This document shows positions 2,313 through 51,616 of a DNA stretch of 64,000 nucleotides, piece by piece. Positions within the stretch are counted from its first letter, which is position 1. Every line of letters starts with the position of its first letter. Origin of the DNA: Anaerolineales bacterium (lineage in GTDB: Bacteria > Chloroflexota > Anaerolineae > Anaerolineales > UBA6663); the NCBI GenBank assembly GCA_020850595.1, contig JADZEK010000031.1:1-64000 (forward strand), read 5' to 3'. The position numbers and the translations under genes are program-made. Below the pieces are notes generated by a model. That model was given only the letters and a program-made list of their open reading frames with translations, searched no databases and was not told where the DNA came from.

Positions 2313-3833
2313 CTACGGCGAAGCGGACTGGCCGTCCAGTATCTGGCGCAGCTGTTGCACCAGTTCCAAGCGCGCCGGCTGGCGCAGTTGGGGCTTGGCC
2401 AATTGCTGTGCCAGCTTCAACAGCTCGGCGCGCGTCTGTGTGTCACTTGGCCTGGGGGTGCAGGATAGGTCGTTCTCGATGCGGGCCATGGCCGAGTAGT
2501 AGTCGGTGGCCACCGTGTGATCGTGGACGCGGGCATAGATCAGCGTCGAACTGAGGTCGCGATGCCCCAGCAGCTTTTGGATGGACGTCACCGGGCAGCC
2601 GGCGTTGACGAGTTGGGTGCCGAAGGTGTGGCGCAGCATGTGCGGGCTGACCTTGACCCCGGCCCGCTCGCCGGCGGAGCGAATTCGGCTGCGCAGCAAG
2701 TCTTTTTCCACTGGTTCGGCCCGGTACAGAAAGACGTAGTCACTCGGCCCTGGCCCGCGCACGGCCAGGTAGGCCTGCAACGCCGAAACCGCGGAATCAG
2801 CCAGGAAAACGGCTCGATCCTTGCGCCCCTTGCCTTGCCGCACCATAAGCTTGCGCATGGGCAAGTCCAGGTCGTCTCGCCGCAGCTCTTCGACTTCGCC
2901 GAGGCGCAGGCCGCCCTGCCACATCACGTAGAAGGCCGCCCGATCCAACAGCGCATCCCGGCGCTGGGCGGCGGTCGGCGCTTGCGCGACATGCGCCTCG
3001 ACCACGGCGCGCAGCTTGACGATTTGTTCGTCCGTCAGGAAGCGGGGCAGGGCCGCCGGTTCCTTCAGCGCCGGTACGCGCAGCAACGCGCGCGGCACGT
3101 TCCAGTCCTGCTCTTGCAGGAACAGCATCAGGCCCTGGAAGGCGCGCAGGTCCTGGTTGATGCTCTTGGGGCTGTAGGCCGCGGCCAAGCGGTCGTCAGT
3201 ATAGTCAAACAGGTGCTGGCGCCGTACATCCGCCAGGCTGGTAATCGGATAGTGCGTCAGCACCCAACGCCACAGACGCGTCTGGTTGCTCCAAAAGTTG
3301 CGGATGGCCTCGCCCAAGCGGGCCGGCCGCCAGCTAGCCTGACGCAAATGCTGGTAGCGGGTGAGCGCCTCGATCAGCCAGGCCGGCAGGCCGGCTTGAT
3401 AGCGGCTCAGGTCCGGTTCGCGAAAGACGATCTGGCGCTGCCCGCGCTGCTGGTGGAGGAAGTGGCGAAACTTCTCCAGCGCGTTGTGCCGGATCTTGGT
3501 CGAAATGGCGCTCAGGCGCCGAGTGTGAATGTAGTCGAGGGCGCGCTGCAGATCCGTCTCAAGGTCCCATTCGGCCACCGGCTTGAGCGAAAGCCCAAGG
3601 GCGTAACCGGCAGTGGGCACGTAGATTTGATCGACCATCAGCGGGCCCGTGCCGCCGTCCAACAGCCAGGCGCGATAATCGTCCAGCAGGGCGATGTTCT
3701 CCTTGGGCCAGTCCGCGCTGTAACACGGGGTCGGGCGGTCGGGTGCTGTGCAGCGTTTACGGGCATGCTTGAGCGCATAATCGAAGCGAGCGGCGGCCGA
3801 ATCGGGACGGGTCATGGCAGCGGGCGCGGTCAT
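2313..3833 (-). CDS. tyrosine recombinase/integrase (long N-terminal region)
   Basis: Catalytic motifs GGLRLGE, GKGRKDRA, HMLRHTF, LGHRDLSSTLIYARVHDH. Start MTAPAAM at 3833 overlaps the stop of the upstream recombinase (ATGA). Confidence 0.9.
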   Translation of the reverse strand: MTAPAAMTRPDSAAARFDYALKHARKRCTAPDRPTPCYSADWPKENIALLDDYRAWLLDGGTGPLMVDQIYVPTAGYALGLSLKPVAEWDLETDLQRALDYIHTRRLSAISTKIRHNALEKFRHFLHQQRGQRQIVFREPDLSRYQAGLPAWLIEALTRYQHLRQASWRPARLGEAIRNFWSNQTRLWRWVLTHYPITSLADVRRQHLFDYTDDRLAAAYSPKSINQDLRAFQGLMLFLQEQDWNVPRALLRVPALKEPAALPRFLTDEQIVKLRAVVEAHVAQAPTAAQRRDALLDRAAFYVMWQGGLRLGEVEELRRDDLDLPMRKLMVRQGKGRKDRAVFLADSAVSALQAYLAVRGPGPSDYVFLYRAEPVEKDLLRSRIRSAGERAGVKVSPHMLRHTFGTQLVNAGCPVTSIQKLLGHRDLSSTLIYARVHDHTVATDYYSAMARIENDLSCTPRPSDTQTRAELLKLAQQLAKPQLRQPARLELVQQLRQILDGQSASP

Positions 3834-12313: not shown

Positions 12314-12351
12314 GGATTTTTGCCACGAATTATCACGAATGGCGCGAATGG
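12314..12351 (+). repeat. CGAAT-type dispersed repeat, copy 1
   Basis: GGATTTTTGCCACGAATTATCACGAATGGCGCGAATGG; CGAAT cores 10 and 9 bp apart. Confidence 0.8.
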
Positions 12352-12552
12352 TGTGTTTGAGGCGTGGGCCGAGTGGCGGGCCGCTTCAGCAGGCATAATC
12401 GCACATTTGTACGGATTTGGGAAGTTGGGGGTAGGAGGGAGGGGGTCAGGATAGCGTGGGTGGGGGATGAGGGTGATGACACGGGGAGAGAAAGCGCGCC
12501 GCCGCTGAGGGCAGCGGCGGCGCGGGTGGTGAGCGCGGCGAGGGCGGCGGGT

Positions 12553-13163: not shown

Positions 13164-14081
13164 TTAGCCTTTCAGGCCGCTGGCGACCAGGCCCTGCACG
13201 AAGTAGCGCTGGAAGAGGAAGTAGACGGCCGCGGGGGGCCACATGGCGAGCATGAAGCGCATGAACATGCCGGGGCTGGGGGTCTCGCCGGCGATGTTGA
13301 CGATCTTGAAGGAGATGGGGTACCACTCTGGGCTGCCGGCGATGGTGAGGCTGGGCCAGAGGTAGTCGTTCCAATAGGTGAGGAAGGTGAGGATGGTGAG
13401 CGCGGCCAGGGCGGGGGCCAGCAGCGGGCCGTAGACGCGGAACAGGATGGTGAAGAGGCCCGCGCCGTCTACGCGGGCGGCGTCTTCGTACTCGGTGGGG
13501 AGCATGTCGAAGGTCTGTTTGAGCAAGAAGATGGCGAGGGGCGGGACCCAGCCAAACAGGAAGAGCGCGGGCCACTCGCCGGCGAAGCCGTGACCGCCCT
13601 GCCCCAGCCAGTTGTTGCCGCCGGCGAAGGGGAAGCGCGCCAGCAGGATGTACTGCGGCAGGATCATGAGGATGGGCGGCATGACGAGGCCGGAGAGCAG
13701 CAGCAGGAAGAGGGGGCCGCGGCCGGGGAAGCGCATTTTGGAGAAGAGGGAGCCGCCGGTGACGCCGACGCCGAGGGTCAGGGCCAGATAGAAGCCCACG
13801 CGCAGCAGGGTGACCAGGTAAGACCCGCTGACGGCGCGCCAGGTGCGCACCAGGCTGGGCCAGTTGAGGGTGTTGGGAATGGGCAGGAAGTTGAATTCGT
13901 AGAAGCGCTCGGGGGTGGTGAAGGCGCCGAGCACGACGTAGAGGATGGGGTAGATCATGAGGAAGCTGCTGACGGCTAAGAAAGCGTAGGTGAGCCAGCG
14001 AGGCCACGAGCGGCCTAACAGGCGCGCCTCCGATTGCCGGGCCAAAGGGCGGCCGCCGAGGCTAGTCATCGTCGTCGCCAT
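13164..14081 (-). CDS. carbohydrate ABC transporter permease (MalG-type)
   Basis: MIYPILYVVLGAFTTPERF and EAA loop YEDAARVDGAGLFTILFRVYGPLLAPALAAL. Confidence 0.88.
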   Translation of the reverse strand: MATTMTSLGGRPLARQSEARLLGRSWPRWLTYAFLAVSSFLMIYPILYVVLGAFTTPERFYEFNFLPIPNTLNWPSLVRTWRAVSGSYLVTLLRVGFYLALTLGVGVTGGSLFSKMRFPGRGPLFLLLLSGLVMPPILMILPQYILLARFPFAGGNNWLGQGGHGFAGEWPALFLFGWVPPLAIFLLKQTFDMLPTEYEDAARVDGAGLFTILFRVYGPLLAPALAALTILTFLTYWNDYLWPSLTIAGSPEWYPISFKIVNIAGETPSPGMFMRFMLAMWPPAAVYFLFQRYFVQGLVASGLKG

Positions 14082-15756
14082 AGAGGGCGCGCTTGGCGGC
14101 GGCGGTGTGGGCGCGGGCGGCGGCAGGCTCGAGGTAGCCGACGGCGGCGTAGAGGTCGGGGCCGTAGTCGCGGGTTTTGACGACGACGGGCATGGGGACG
14201 GCGTGGCCGAGGATGAGGGCTTGCTGTTGGGTGTCGAGACGGGCCAGGACTTCGCGCAGGTGGCCGGCGCCGCTGACGCCGGAGAAGACGGCTTTGATGT
14301 CGGCTTCGTTGTCGAGCAGGCAGGTGACGCGCGTGCCGATCTGGCTCATGACTTCTTCTTCGATGCCGCTGGGGCGCTGGTCTACGATGAGGAGGGTGAC
14401 GTTGTATTTGCGCAGTTCGCGGGCGATGGCGCCGAAGATGGTGTGGCCGGCGATCTCGGGGTCGAGGAATTTGTGGGCTTCTTCGATGGTGATGACGAGC
14501 GGGCGCGGCTCTTGGCCGGTCTGGCCGGCGGCCTTGTTTTTCTGCTCGACGTAGCGGGCGTGGATGCGGCGGGTGAGGTAGTTGGCGACGAGGACGTAGG
14601 CGGCCAGCGAGTTGCCGTAGACGCCGAACTCGAGCACGATGTGGATGCCACGGTTGAGGCAGTTGAAGATGTAGTCAACCGTGTCGTCGGGCGGCGGGCA
14701 CAGGCTGAGGAAGCCCAGCCGGTCGGGGCGGAACTGCTCGAACTTGCGTTGGATGGCGCGCAGGGTGCCTTTCTGGATCTTCTCTTCGTCTTCGAGTTGG
14801 TCAATCTCGCTGGTGTCGTTTTCGTCAAGTAACTTGACGATCCAATTCTTCTGGAGCTTGCGGCGCAGGTAGTAGAGGGCGCCCACCTGCACTTCGCTGA
14901 GGCCGATGATGCCGGCCAGCATTTCCACGTCTTCCGGCTCTATTTGGTCAAGCCCGATGTGCAGCTCGCCGTCGGTTTTGCTGCCGCGGTGGCGGGAGGT
15001 TTGGGGGTCGAGGGTGATGACTTGCACGCGGCCGTCGGGGAAGATCTGGCGCAGGCCCTTGAACTCCTGGCTGTGCTCGTTCTTGACGGACCAGCCGTAG
15101 TCGTTGTGCATGTCGAAGATGAGGTTGACGGCGGCGTCGGCTTTGATGATGCCGGCCAGGATGGTGCGGGTGATGAAGCTCTTGCCGGTGCCGCTCTTGC
15201 CGAACACGCCGGAGGAGCGCTCGACGAAGCGCGGCAGGTCGAGGTTGACTTTGACGTCGGCCATGTCGAGCGGGGCGCCGATGTGGAAGTGCTGGAGGTC
15301 TTCGGCGCCGAAGACCTGGTTGACGTCTGCTTCGCTGGCGGGGTAGACGAGGGCGAAGTGGGCGGGGACGGTCTTGACCGGCGCGGGTTTGCCGCCGCCC
15401 TGGGCGTCGAGCAGGAGCATGGGGGCGATGTTGAGGGTGCCGAAGGCCAGCTCACTGGCGTAAACGTCGGCGGTGAAGGCGTCGGCCGGGTCGGGCGGGG
15501 TCTTGAGCAGATCGGGGTTGGCGCTGTCGAGGGCGATGTCGGTGACGATGGCGAAGAATTTTTTGCCGGTGCGGCCTTCGACGACGACGTAGCGGCCGAC
15601 GGCCATGTCTTCGATGACGCCGCCGGGGACCTGGCCGGGGTCGAGCTTGACGAGGACGCCCTGGGAGAGGGAGCCGCCGACGACGAGGCCGAGGCGGGCG
15701 CGGGGCGGGGCGGAGTGGAAGAGGTCGTCGAGGTTAGAGGGAGGGTTGAGGGTCAT
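14062..15756 (-). CDS. HerA-like ATPase (HAS barrel + FtsK/HerA ATPase)
   Basis: HAS-barrel-like N-terminus (GVLVKLDPG...VGRYVVVEG), Walker A GVFGKSGTGKSF, VITIEEAHKFL, LLIVDQRPSGIEEEVMSQIGTRV. Confidence 0.88.
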   Translation of the reverse strand: MTLNPPSNLDDLFHSAPPRARLGLVVGGSLSQGVLVKLDPGQVPGGVIEDMAVGRYVVVEGRTGKKFFAIVTDIALDSANPDLLKTPPDPADAFTADVYASELAFGTLNIAPMLLLDAQGGGKPAPVKTVPAHFALVYPASEADVNQVFGAEDLQHFHIGAPLDMADVKVNLDLPRFVERSSGVFGKSGTGKSFITRTILAGIIKADAAVNLIFDMHNDYGWSVKNEHSQEFKGLRQIFPDGRVQVITLDPQTSRHRGSKTDGELHIGLDQIEPEDVEMLAGIIGLSEVQVGALYYLRRKLQKNWIVKLLDENDTSEIDQLEDEEKIQKGTLRAIQRKFEQFRPDRLGFLSLCPPPDDTVDYIFNCLNRGIHIVLEFGVYGNSLAAYVLVANYLTRRIHARYVEQKNKAAGQTGQEPRPLVITIEEAHKFLDPEIAGHTIFGAIARELRKYNVTLLIVDQRPSGIEEEVMSQIGTRVTCLLDNEADIKAVFSGVSGAGHLREVLARLDTQQQALILGHAVPMPVVVKTRDYGPDLYAAVGYLEPAAARAHTAAAKRALYGDDDD

Positions 15757-15777: not shown

Positions 15778-15820
15778 GGATTTTTGCCACGAATGAGCAC
15801 GAATGGAGAGCGACGAATGG
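15778..15820 (+). repeat. CGAAT-type dispersed repeat, copy 2
   Basis: GGATTTTTGCCACGAATGAGCACGAATGGAGAGCGACGAATGG. Confidence 0.8.
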
Positions 15821-15842
15821 GGCAGGAATGATGGGGGGTGGG

Positions 15843-16247
15843 TCATTGGACGATGCGCTTGGTTTCGAGGGCTTTGGCGCCGAAGTTGATGAGCAGGGCC
15901 AGGCGCAAACCGGTGGCGGATAGGTAATGCTGCGCCTGAGCAAAGTGGGCGGAGTGCAGAGAGGTCGTTGACTTGATTTCGATGATGATCTTGTCGTCCA
16001 CGACCAGATCGGCTTCGTATTGGCCGACGATTTGTTCCTTGTAACGGACGGGCAGCGCTTTCTCCGACTCGAAGGGCACACCGCGCAGGGAGAGCTCATG
16101 CGCCAGCGCGGTGTGGTAGACCGCTTCCAGAAAGCCCGGCCCCAGCACGTTGTGCACTTCCATGGCCGCGCCGACGATCTGGTAGGACAGCGCGGGGTAC
16201 AACACTTCCGCCGCCCGGCGCGCCTGCCTGCCCGTATTCATGTCCAT
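15843..16247 (-). CDS. GxxExxY family protein (putative PD-(D/E)XK-like nuclease)
   Basis: SYQIVGAAMEVHNVLGPGFLEAVYHTALAHEL contains GPGFLEAVY (GxxExxY). EADLVVDDKIIIEIKS gives a D...ExK motif. Confidence 0.9.
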   Translation of the reverse strand: MDMNTGRQARRAAEVLYPALSYQIVGAAMEVHNVLGPGFLEAVYHTALAHELSLRGVPFESEKALPVRYKEQIVGQYEADLVVDDKIIIEIKSTTSLHSAHFAQAQHYLSATGLRLALLINFGAKALETKRIVQ

Positions 16248-16277
16248 TCGTCCTAATTCGTGCCCATGCGTGGCAAA
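16241..16277 (-). repeat. CGAAT-type dispersed repeat, copy 3 (inverted)
   Basis: Reverse complement reads TTTGCCACGCATGGGCACGAATTAGGACGAATGGACA. It overlaps the start codon of the GxxExxY gene. Confidence 0.75.
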
Positions 16278-16284
16278 GTCTCGC

Positions 16285-16887
16285 CTAGCTCTGAATGCGC
16301 CGGAGCAGGTTTTCCAGGCGCGGCAGGTCGCGGGAGAGCAGGCGGGCCAGTTCGCGGCCGGCGGCGCGGCGGAAGGGGCGCTGGTCTTCGGGCGGGCGGG
16401 CGGTGGCGGCGTTGCGCAGGGCGACGACGATCAACTCGTCGGCGGGCACGTCGGGGGCGTTGAGCACCAGGCGCAAGAAATCGAATTGGGCGGTGCAGTC
16501 GCGCCACTCGGCGGGCGAGCAGGCTTCGATGCGGTCGAGGGTGACGGGCGGCTGAGGCGGCAGTGCGCACACGAGGGAGCCGGTGAGGCTGTAGTAGCCG
16601 ATGGAGAGCACGGCCACTTCGAGCGGCACCTGGCGGTTCTCGCGCTGGTCGAGGATGTAGGCTTCGTCCAGGTCGGGCGCGGCGATCATCTGGCGCACGA
16701 ACGGGTCGTCTTCGATGACGATGTCGTAGATCAGGCCGAGCACCTGGCTGCGGCCGCGCTGGGCGGGGGCCTTCACCAGGTCGCCAAAGCGGGGCACTTC
16801 CGGTTCGGGCACCGAGCAGCCGAAGACAAAGCCGGTGGTGGCGCTGCGCAACAGGCGCCCAATCGCCAGGTTCAATCCGTCTGCCAT
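16285..16887 (-). CDS. hypothetical protein with HAS-barrel-like N-terminus, HerA/NurA-associated
   Basis: 200 aa; GDLVKAPAQRGRSQVLGLIYDIVIEDDPFVRQ resembles a HAS-barrel strand pattern. Sits between nurA and herA in the same orientation. Confidence 0.6.
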   Translation of the reverse strand: MADGLNLAIGRLLRSATTGFVFGCSVPEPEVPRFGDLVKAPAQRGRSQVLGLIYDIVIEDDPFVRQMIAAPDLDEAYILDQRENRQVPLEVAVLSIGYYSLTGSLVCALPPQPPVTLDRIEACSPAEWRDCTAQFDFLRLVLNAPDVPADELIVVALRNAATARPPEDQRPFRRAAGRELARLLSRDLPRLENLLRRIQS

Positions 16888-16896
16888 GTGTCGCTC

Positions 16897-18093
16897 CTAG
16901 CGCCCAAAGCGCCGCCGGGCGGCGCCCGTCCAGGCTTTGCCTTGGGCCTTGTGCGAGAGGCCGGGGGCCAACTGCCGGCGGATCATCGCGCCCATGACCA
17001 TCTCATCGAACGTCCGGCGCTCGCCCTGGGTGACGACGGCCAGTTCGTGGGCGCGCACGAGGACATAGGGGAAACCAGCGCTGACCTGCGATTGCGAGAC
17101 TAGCGCGGCGTGGGTGAGGTTGAGCCGGGCGGGGTCGTTGGCGACCCATTCGGGGACTTCCACGCGCAACAAGCCGGGCTGGCCGGGCCGCCCGGCGTTG
17201 AGGTAGAAGAAGTAGATGGTGTGGCCGCGGTCGCGGTAGTAAAGCTCATTGTTGGGGGAGGCGTTGACGAACAGGGCGCTGCGCTGGCCGGGGGCCAGGA
17301 AATTGAAGAGCAGCCCGTCGGTCAGGCCGGTGTAGGCGGGGCCGAGGTCGCGCAGAGTTTCTTCGCGGACTTGGTCGAGGGCCAGGCCGTGCAGGTGCAG
17401 CAGGCGCACGACATTGGCGGCGCGCGGCCGGTCCACGACGCCGGCGACGGCCGCGCCGGTGTCGCGCAGCTGGTCGAGCTGGTCGAGGTATTCGCCGATC
17501 TTTTGGCGGATGAGGTGCTGGTCGTTGATTTGGAGGGAGAGGTAGAGCAGGAGGCCGTTGTCGAGCACGGCCAGGGTGGGCGCGGAGGCGGCCTCGGGCG
17601 CGGCCAGGCGGGCCAGCTCGGCCAACTCGCGGCGGTCACGCTCGGCGTCTATGAGCACGGCGGGCTTCTGGCCGCCGTCTACTTCGTATAAGTCGGCGTC
17701 TTCGTAGAAGACCTGCGGGGTGGAGGCGGTGCTGGGGGCGCGCTCCAGCCCGGCGCGGAAGACGATGCTGCCGATGTTGATGAGGTAATAGAGGGCGACG
17801 CCGTGCCGGTCGGGGTAGATTTGCGAACCGTCGGCGGCGATGACGGTGTGGCGGGCGGCGAGGTCGGGCGGCGGGAAGGCGGCGTCAACGGCTTCGGCGG
17901 TGGGGATGGCGCCGGCCCAGCGCAGGTGGAGGGCGGCCTCCACCTTGCGGCGCAGGTCGGCAGCGGGGTCGGCGATGGCGCGCAGGGCGGCCTGGGCGAT
18001 CGGCAAGCGCGCCTCCAGGTCAGTCAGCTTGGCGGCCAAGGTGAGGCTGAGCTGGTTGACGGCCTGCGTGAGTTTGTTGAGTTCGAGGGCCAT
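16897..18093 (-). CDS. NurA domain 5'-3' nuclease-like protein
   Basis: VIAADGSQIYPDRHG near the N-terminus, followed by LAVLDNGLLLYLSL and VAGVVDRPRA. HerA-like gene is downstream. Confidence 0.82.
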   Translation of the reverse strand: MALELNKLTQAVNQLSLTLAAKLTDLEARLPIAQAALRAIADPAADLRRKVEAALHLRWAGAIPTAEAVDAAFPPPDLAARHTVIAADGSQIYPDRHGVALYYLINIGSIVFRAGLERAPSTASTPQVFYEDADLYEVDGGQKPAVLIDAERDRRELAELARLAAPEAASAPTLAVLDNGLLLYLSLQINDQHLIRQKIGEYLDQLDQLRDTGAAVAGVVDRPRAANVVRLLHLHGLALDQVREETLRDLGPAYTGLTDGLLFNFLAPGQRSALFVNASPNNELYYRDRGHTIYFFYLNAGRPGQPGLLRVEVPEWVANDPARLNLTHAALVSQSQVSAGFPYVLVRAHELAVVTQGERRTFDEMVMGAMIRRQLAPGLSHKAQGKAWTGAARRRFGR

Positions 18094-18158
18094 GTGCGCG
18101 AATTGTAGCACGTCCGTTCGGGGGTGAAAAGACAGAGAGCGCAGACGGGCGGCCCGGC

Positions 18159-29865: not shown

Positions 29866-29905
29866 AGGCATTTGCCACGAATTATCACGAATTACACGAA
29901 TGAAA
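29866..29905 (+). repeat. CGAAT-type dispersed repeat, copy 4
   Basis: GGCATTTGCCACGAATTATCACGAATTACACGAATGAAAATCG. Confidence 0.78.
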
Positions 29906-35445: not shown

Positions 35446-35455
35446 GGGCACAAGA

Positions 35456-35502
35456 GGATTTTTCCACGAATTGACACGAATGGGCAGGCGAATGAGCACG
35501 AA
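35456..35502 (+). repeat. CGAAT-type dispersed repeat, copy 5
   Basis: GGATTTTTCCACGAATTGACACGAATGGGCAGGCGAATGAGCACGAAGG. Confidence 0.78.
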
Positions 35503-35608
35503 GGGGGGAAGGTGAGGAAAAGCAGCGCGGAGGCGAGGGGTGGGCTTCCGCGCTTTGGGTTGCAGCCGCCGGCGGGGGTGGGGTCGCCGCGACTACACAG
35601 CGGGCCGG

Positions 35609-51560: not shown

Positions 51561-51616
51561 CCCCATTCGTGTCCATTCGTTCTCAATTCGTGCGCATTCG
51601 TGGCAAAAATCCTCCC
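51561..51616 (-). repeat. CGAAT-type dispersed repeat, copy 6 (inverted)
   Basis: Reverse complement: GGAGGATTTTTGCCACGAATGCGCACGAATTGAGAACGAATGGACACGAATGGGG. Confidence 0.8.

Follow-up and report, generated by a model that had tools for sequence, protein, structure and literature searches.

GxxExxY nucleases and their private flanking repeat arrays look like co-evolving, probably self-spreading pairs

Results

A GxxExxY nuclease gene enclosed by inverted repeat arrays

We analyzed a stretch of 64,000 nucleotides from an Anaerolineales bacterium of the phylum Chloroflexota (assembly GCA_020850595.1, contig JADZEK010000031.1, positions 1 to 64,000), referred to below as the window. Close to Rad50- and Mre11-like genes, the window contains a small gene of the GxxExxY family with an array of short repeat units on either side, and further arrays of the same type elsewhere:

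12323..12355, plus strand: solo array of the same flavor (unit sequence) as that of the GxxExxY gene, upstream of an mre11-like gene (pattern scan)
14062..15756, minus strand: gene for a HerA-like ATPase, adjoining the cassette (PF01935, E=5e-31)
15778..15829, plus strand: 3'-side array, with the outer flank GGATTTTTGCC followed by the units (sequence and pattern scan)
15843..16247, minus strand: GxxExxY (PDDEXK_3) nuclease gene, 134 aa plus stop (profile matches, residue conservation, AlphaFold2 model)
16236..16279, minus strand: 5'-side inverted array, with the outer flank TTTGCC and four units exactly 10 bp apart (sequence, pattern scan, array detection)
16285..16887, minus strand: conserved gene of 200 aa between the cassette and NurA, without a Pfam match (synteny in relatives)
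16897..18111, minus strand: gene for a NurA-like nuclease (PF09376, E=6e-20)
29866..29902, plus strand: three-unit solo array, with a uracil-DNA glycosylase-like ORF on one side and a hydratase-like ORF on the other
35455..35505, plus strand: solo array about 10 nt past a stop codon
51560..51610, minus strand: solo array of four units (pattern scan)

The protein matches both the GxxExxY profile TIGR04256 (E=1e-42, 144.7 bits against a curated cut-off of 35) and PF13366, PDDEXK_3 (E=2e-40, 138.5 bits against a cut-off of 22). The first-pass annotation of this DNA had placed the gene between herA-like and nurA-side genes, had described it as bracketed by inverted repeats, and had noted that the 5' copy runs into the start codon; ORF positions, profile matches and pattern scans bear out all three statements. 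CACGAAT arrays with a spacing of about 10 bp are present on both sides. The 3'-side array comprises CACGAAT at 15788-15794 and 15798-15804, GACGAAT at 15812-15818 and a weak unit at 15823-15829, and the 5'-side array consists of CACGCAT (16266-16272), CACGAAT (16256-16262), GACGAAT (16246-16252) and CATGAAT (16236-16242), of which the last two overlap the annotated start (ATGGACATGAAT, encoding MDMN).

The PDDEXK_3 gene is the sole gene between the arrays, and no DDE, HUH, serine or tyrosine transposase is encoded there. The cassette lies between ORFs and not within an intron or intein of a conserved gene, the location expected of a homing endonuclease gene. A search of Rfam with the locus yielded no match.

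The CACGAAT repeat is not tied to the GxxExxY site, given the four further arrays in the window (12323, 29875, 35464 and 51565-51603), all of them intergenic as far as checked. Unit pairs of the form CCACGAATnnnCACGAAT, with up to 3 mismatches allowed, occur 9 times in the window compared to 0.67 expected from shuffles, and the genome from which the window derives contains 84 exact unit pairs, with none in the reversed-pattern control. Most of the dispersed arrays in this genome are one-armed, and many begin shortly past a stop codon. This genome also contains a second GxxExxY gene, which has CACGGAT arrays on its two sides instead.

A predicted nuclease of the Cas4/RecB type

The protein had been described as consistent with a PD-(D/E)XK nuclease on account of a D-x(8)-ExK pattern. 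The assignment to this nuclease family holds, on the strength of the PF13366 match, the fold and the conserved residues, but the actual spacing is D80-x9-E90-x-K92. Among 146 homologues, E41, D80, E90, K92, Q104 and Y108 are 96-99% conserved, with 98-99% conservation of the catalytic residues E41, D80, E90 and K92. The best fold matches of the AlphaFold2 model (pLDDT 91) in the PDB are Cas4 SSO0001, which ranks first (E=3e-4, TM 0.57 on query length), LHK-Exo and human MGME1. The E...D...ExK...QxxxY set of the window protein, with Q104xxxY108 as its last element, corresponds to the residue set of RecB/Cas4-type nucleases. Judging by the modeled structure and the sequence, GxxExxY is a member of the Cas4/RecB-like clade of the PD-(D/E)XK nuclease superfamily and meets the criteria for membership. 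The fold and the residue set are shared with Cas4, the AddB nuclease domain, LHK-Exo and MGME1; unlike these, the window protein is a stand-alone domain of 134 aa that is linked to repeats of its own and not to CRISPR arrays or helicases. The window protein fails the criteria for Cas4 itself: it contains no cysteine, and therefore no Cas4-type Fe-S cluster, and its neighbors are HerA and NurA rather than cas genes.

Inverted arrays of many flavors flank GxxExxY genes across phyla

The first-pass annotation had proposed testing whether CACGAAT repeats are enriched next to GxxExxY genes in related genomes. We collected 80 relatives, drawn from Chloroflexi, Bacteroidetes, Planctomycetes and further phyla. 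In this sample, the upstream flank resembles the reverse complement of the downstream flank much more closely than do random positions (median 15.4 versus 9.2, p=4e-24), and 6-mers recurring at 9-12 bp are about five times more common in GxxExxY flanks than at random positions. Upstream and downstream flanks cannot be compared as cleanly in direct orientation, since two-armed elements are present in some of them.

We then scored a gene as positive when at least two repeat units of the same flavor were found on each side in inverted orientation. Among 141 genes with both flanks available, including many paralogues (the 50 host genomes searched contain 1-15 GxxExxY genes each), 85 were positive, compared to 3 of 600 random placements. 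In a fresh held-out set from Chloroflexota, 40 of 57 genes were positive, and in a last set 7 of 14, so that altogether 132 of 212 GxxExxY genes in about 80 bacterial genomes are flanked by matched inverted arrays. These rates are lower bounds because the test is strict and some of the loci that fail it show imperfect arrays by eye; the roughly 38% of genes that are negative may include genes with decayed arrays as well as unrelated subfamilies.

The arrays consist of units of 7 bp with the consensus C[AG]CN[AG]A[T/G/A], spaced 9 bp (149 cases), 10 bp (115) or 11 bp (25) apart. Their flavors include CACGAAT, CACAGAT, CACAGAG, CACAAAG, CGCAGAT, CGCTGAT, CGTAAAT and CATGAAT; hence the proposed test gives a clearly positive outcome, with the qualification that it is the architecture, with units one helical turn apart, that is conserved beside GxxExxY genes, and not the CACGAAT sequence that the annotation had singled out. 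An array on one side of a gene is far more similar to its counterpart on the other side (median 16.8) than to the arrays of other GxxExxY paralogues in the same genome (9.6; p=2.5e-34), and therefore the flavor belongs to the gene copy and not to the genome.

In favor of an artefact of sampling, of shared low-complexity sequence or of phylogeny, one could cite the selection of the first 80 loci for their similarity to a single protein and the origin of many of them in metagenome assemblies. We regard this explanation as scarcely tenable, for the controls already contradict it: reversed patterns are near zero, matched gene families are negative, and the held-out sets agree with contrasts that are independent of the tree. 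The possibility that such arrays are shared by other small, mobile-looking genes was rejected for two families, with 1 of 28 genes of TIGR02436 (also small and multi-copy) and 0 of 18 DUF559 genes from the same genomes scoring positive. The TIGR02436 genes, which encode four-helix bundles, are themselves highly multi-copy in the surveyed genomes (up to 31) without carrying these arrays.

A single residue co-varies with the repeat unit

Protein similarity tracks unit similarity among 85 training genes (Mantel rho 0.34, 0 of 500 permutations), and in the same set the alignment column most strongly associated with unit base 5 is that of Ser21 of the window protein. A rule, Thr predicting G and any other residue A, was fixed in writing before new loci were analyzed. 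It proved correct for 37 of 40 held-out genes (p=2e-8) and for all of 7 more new genes. When only downstream arrays were considered, so that the coding sequence cannot contribute to the match, the rule held in 119 of 131 cases: Thr was found with 52 G and 1 A, Val, Ala, Cys and Ile almost always with A, and Ser was mixed. Ser at this position accompanies A in 17 cases and G in 7.

A tree that was built without the key columns implies 18 changes of unit base 5. The 18 path-disjoint contrasting pairs comprise 13 that are concordant with the rule, none that are discordant and 5 ties (p=1e-4), and in these tree-independent pairs the column of residue 21 is by far the best of all columns for base 5. 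A link between residue 47 and unit base 7, strong in the raw counts, could not be resolved from phylogeny (4 independent pairs, 1 concordant and 3 ties) and is not claimed. At one locus (G141:C14:59130-65850), three GxxExxY paralogues lie within 6 kb, with the flavors CACAGAT, CACGAAT and CTCGAAT and with T, S and S, respectively, at position 21, in agreement with their flavors (L307, L305 and L301), which makes them a ready-made set for comparing specificities.

The covariation strongly supports the inferences that each GxxExxY protein recognizes the 7-bp units of its own array and that the residue equivalent to Ser21, at the N-terminal end of helix 1, helps to set the purine at unit position 5. 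The earlier suggestion that the nuclease may act on the repeat gains support from the same covariation, albeit only indirectly.

This relationship bears on the possibility that the arrays are merely the ends of an element moved by another enzyme, a transposase or RAYT, with GxxExxY as cargo. Inverted ends and MITE-like derivatives are typical of elements mobilized in trans; cargo, however, should not co-vary with the bases of the ends, as residue 21 does in all 13 informative independent pairs, nor should it predict new cases as this residue does, and we consider this explanation very improbable.

Dispersed arrays accompany the gene

We tested co-occurrence in 151 Chloroflexota genomes with the pattern CCACRRATn(2-3)CACRRAT and a threshold of two or more pairs; gaps of 2-3 were used in the later searches because a fixed 3-base gap misses arrays with 9-bp spacing. 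At least two pairs were found in 22 of the 34 genomes with GxxExxY and in 3 of the 117 without it (p=6e-15), and at least ten pairs in 11 of the 34 and in none of those without. Reversed-pattern controls in these counts of dispersed repeats are near zero.

The association extends to individual flavors. CACGAAT pairs are more common where a gene with the CACGAAT unit is known (p=0.001), and the same applies to CACAGAT (p=1e-5). For CGTAAAT, the counts are 13, 13 and 2 pairs in the three genomes that have a gene flanked by this unit (loci L065, L072 and L063; the first, in genome G069, was identified as CGTAAAT-flanked by sequence), a single pair in one of the remaining 47 genomes and none in the other 46. 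In several genomes, a dispersed flavor was found without a matching gene, although not all paralogues were covered. Genome G165 contains nine dispersed pairs and no detected GxxExxY gene, which could be a relic or reflect a gene missing from the draft assembly. In genome G059 (C102:7560-7862), CACAGAT pairs occur in tandem every 57 bp or so, as opposed to the usual dispersed form.

Could the arrays be operators, bound by the protein for control of its own gene, with the dispersed copies being decayed or captured control sites? The overlap of the 5' array with the start codon in the window would suit such autoregulation, and the covariation of protein and repeat requires no more than binding. 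We nevertheless find it improbable, considering that the gene is enclosed by inverted arrays and not merely preceded by one, that the majority of dispersed copies are remote from any GxxExxY gene and many start right after a stop codon, and that the predicted fold is that of a nuclease with conserved catalytic residues.

Occupied, empty and varying sites

Empty sites at orthologous nurA-herA loci, which the first-pass annotation had suggested looking for, do exist: three relatives (L085, L088 and L093) have an empty junction where the HerA gene meets its upstream neighbor. In a fourth (L084; G004:C143, about 3324-3656), the junction is occupied by a GxxExxY gene with CACGAAT arrays; this copy is apparently frameshifted, and therefore cassettes also decay. 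The empty junctions are too diverged to define a target-site duplication. At the same upstream junction of herA in L094 (G001:C39), we observed a gene-less inverted array of the CACTGAGG/GCGCTGAGG type, that is, of another flavor.

In four congeneric genomes, one orthologous gene retains CACGAAG/CGCGAAG arrays on both sides, with varying spacers and numbers of units. At another junction of the congeneric set, an intact cassette with CGCAGAG arms is present in a single genome, and its sisters have only arrays of other flavors. More generally, the array content of orthologous intergenic sites differs between sister species. No clean empty sites for solo arrays could be read in the four congeneric genomes, where intergenic sites are too rearranged for insertion ends to be recognized, and direct evidence of insertion, target-site duplication or cleavage was not obtained. 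One intergenic position in four congeneric genomes (L233-L252) carries flavors that differ by species (CACGAAT versus CACAGAT), as if replaced or converted.

Genome G125 contains an element of 150-160 bp with two inverted arms that recurs in dispersed form with unrelated flanks; one copy (L253) keeps a single arm. In this genome (L253-L269), the element has a further motif on the outer side of the arrays, which is partly inverted (CTCCCGTTTCTGGCGGGA ... TTTCCCGTTAAAAACGG).

Among close orthologues within one genus, dN/dS is 0.035-0.07, which indicates purifying selection and, therefore, that the function of GxxExxY is maintained. Selection of this strength is compatible with a host function as much as with a selfish one, and because of it a host-serving role remains a serious rival, even if we consider it unlikely. 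Under this explanation, the dispersed arrays would be genome-wide binding or processing sites, comparable to Chi/RecBCD or competence uptake signals, and the gene would be kept for repair, recombination or defense, with spreading incidental. The retention of one orthologous gene and its arrays at a single site in the congeneric genomes and the location of the window copy among rad50, mre11, herA and nurA genes also speak for it. It is harder to reconcile with the different private repeats of paralogues in one genome, with a repeat copy number that ranges from 0 to about 400 among genomes having the gene, with the divergent array content of orthologous sites in sister species, and with the lack of any PADLOC match to GxxExxY.

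Discussion

Because the repeats are private to the gene copy, dispersed in the genome and co-varying with one amino acid, enzyme and repeat look like a co-evolving, probably self-spreading pair, in which cleavage and copying are inferred. The explanation that we favor, with some confidence, is that GxxExxY genes and their flanking arrays are the two parts of an element for repeat dissemination, which resembles a REPtron in its way of working but is built on a Cas4/RecB-type PD-(D/E)XK nuclease. The covariation strongly supports recognition by the protein of the 7-bp units of its own array, with the residue equivalent to Ser21 helping to set the base-5 purine. Several monomers may then sit side by side on the same face of the helix, covering 2-5 units, an arrangement inferred from the 9-11 bp spacing, and the conserved catalytic set suggests that the bound nuclease would nick or trim DNA at the array. 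Repair of the ends by recombination or template switching, again an inference, could copy the array or the whole cassette to other intergenic sites. Such a process would be expected to leave behind cassettes, two-armed MITE-like elements and one-armed solo arrays, all of which are present in the genomes. Points that weigh against this explanation are the genes that fail the strict array test, the lack of any directly seen insertion or cleavage, the strong purifying selection, the ambiguity of Ser at position 21 and the genomes whose dispersed repeats have no matching gene. In the window, a CACGAAT-type cassette would have come to occupy the intergenic gap between the HerA gene and the neighbor on the NurA side.

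The closest known parallel is with RAYT/REP pairs, which are defined by inverted flanking repeats, matched abundance and co-evolution (Nunvar et al. 2010, PMC2817692), and with the REPtron (RAYT plus REP) systems (Corneloup et al. 2021, PMC8266576). GxxExxY meets the same criteria: the gene lies between two inverted copies of its cognate repeat, the repeat is dispersed in intergenic DNA and abundant only with the gene, enzyme and repeat co-evolve, and two-armed non-autonomous derivatives occur. The enzymes, however, are unrelated. RAYTs are HUH tyrosine transposases that act on single-stranded hairpins, whereas GxxExxY is a PD-(D/E)XK nuclease without an HUH domain; the window protein matches PF13366 only and thus fails the HUH (Y1) criterion. 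Furthermore, the GxxExxY repeats are helically phased arrays of 7-bp units and REP is a single hairpin, and a genome can contain up to 15 GxxExxY paralogues, many with different flavors. With the RAYT/REP features present and the HUH enzyme absent, the system would therefore work like a REPtron without being one. The REP/RAYT-like cassette of the first-pass annotation stands as an analogy in flanks, abundance and co-evolution; it does not extend to the enzyme, and mobility was not directly observed.

Two other kinds of nucleases invite comparison. Rpn (YhgA-like) proteins are also multi-copy, mobile-looking PD-(D/E)XK proteins; a role of the nuclease in driving template switching has been proposed for them, and RpnA cut DNA with little or no sequence specificity (Kingston et al. 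2017, PMC5350276). The abstract of that study, in contrast to what we find for GxxExxY, mentions no cognate repeat. Homing endonucleases, too, are small and are proposed to insert a copy of the gene that encodes them at a site that they recognize, but the GxxExxY gene is intergenic, not in an intron or intein, and has recognition arrays on both sides.

In the open papers of PubMed Central, which do not cover bioRxiv, GxxExxY appears only in two incidental mentions, the repeat strings occur in no paper with a bacterial context, and the pairing of nuclease and repeat is undescribed; reports elsewhere are not excluded. Whether GxxExxY and its repeats constitute a previously undescribed, phylum-spanning class of self-spreading nuclease-repeat systems, with a modular, partly decipherable one-face code and with many genomes seeded with phased intergenic arrays, is a question on which we are evenly divided. 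The pairing gives a testable role to a nuclease family of many bacterial phyla that is almost absent from the searchable literature, and offers a way to account for a set of short intergenic repeats, among them CACGAAT, CACAGAT, CACAGAG and CGTAAAT, which on their own would seem to be unrelated, genome-specific curiosities. The RAYT/REP arrangement would have arisen a second time in evolution, independently. GxxExxY genes also provide a natural collection of nucleases with their matched targets, for which one protein-base contact is already predicted, and this could make the DNA recognition rules of a small nuclease directly testable.

Searches of plasmids and phages yielded few GxxExxY copies (8 plasmids and one phage in two records). 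In several genomes (G096, G100:C20, G117:C5, G133:C1, G134 and G141), a number of GxxExxY matches lie within open frames of 445-1015 aa, which may be fusions or merely long frames.
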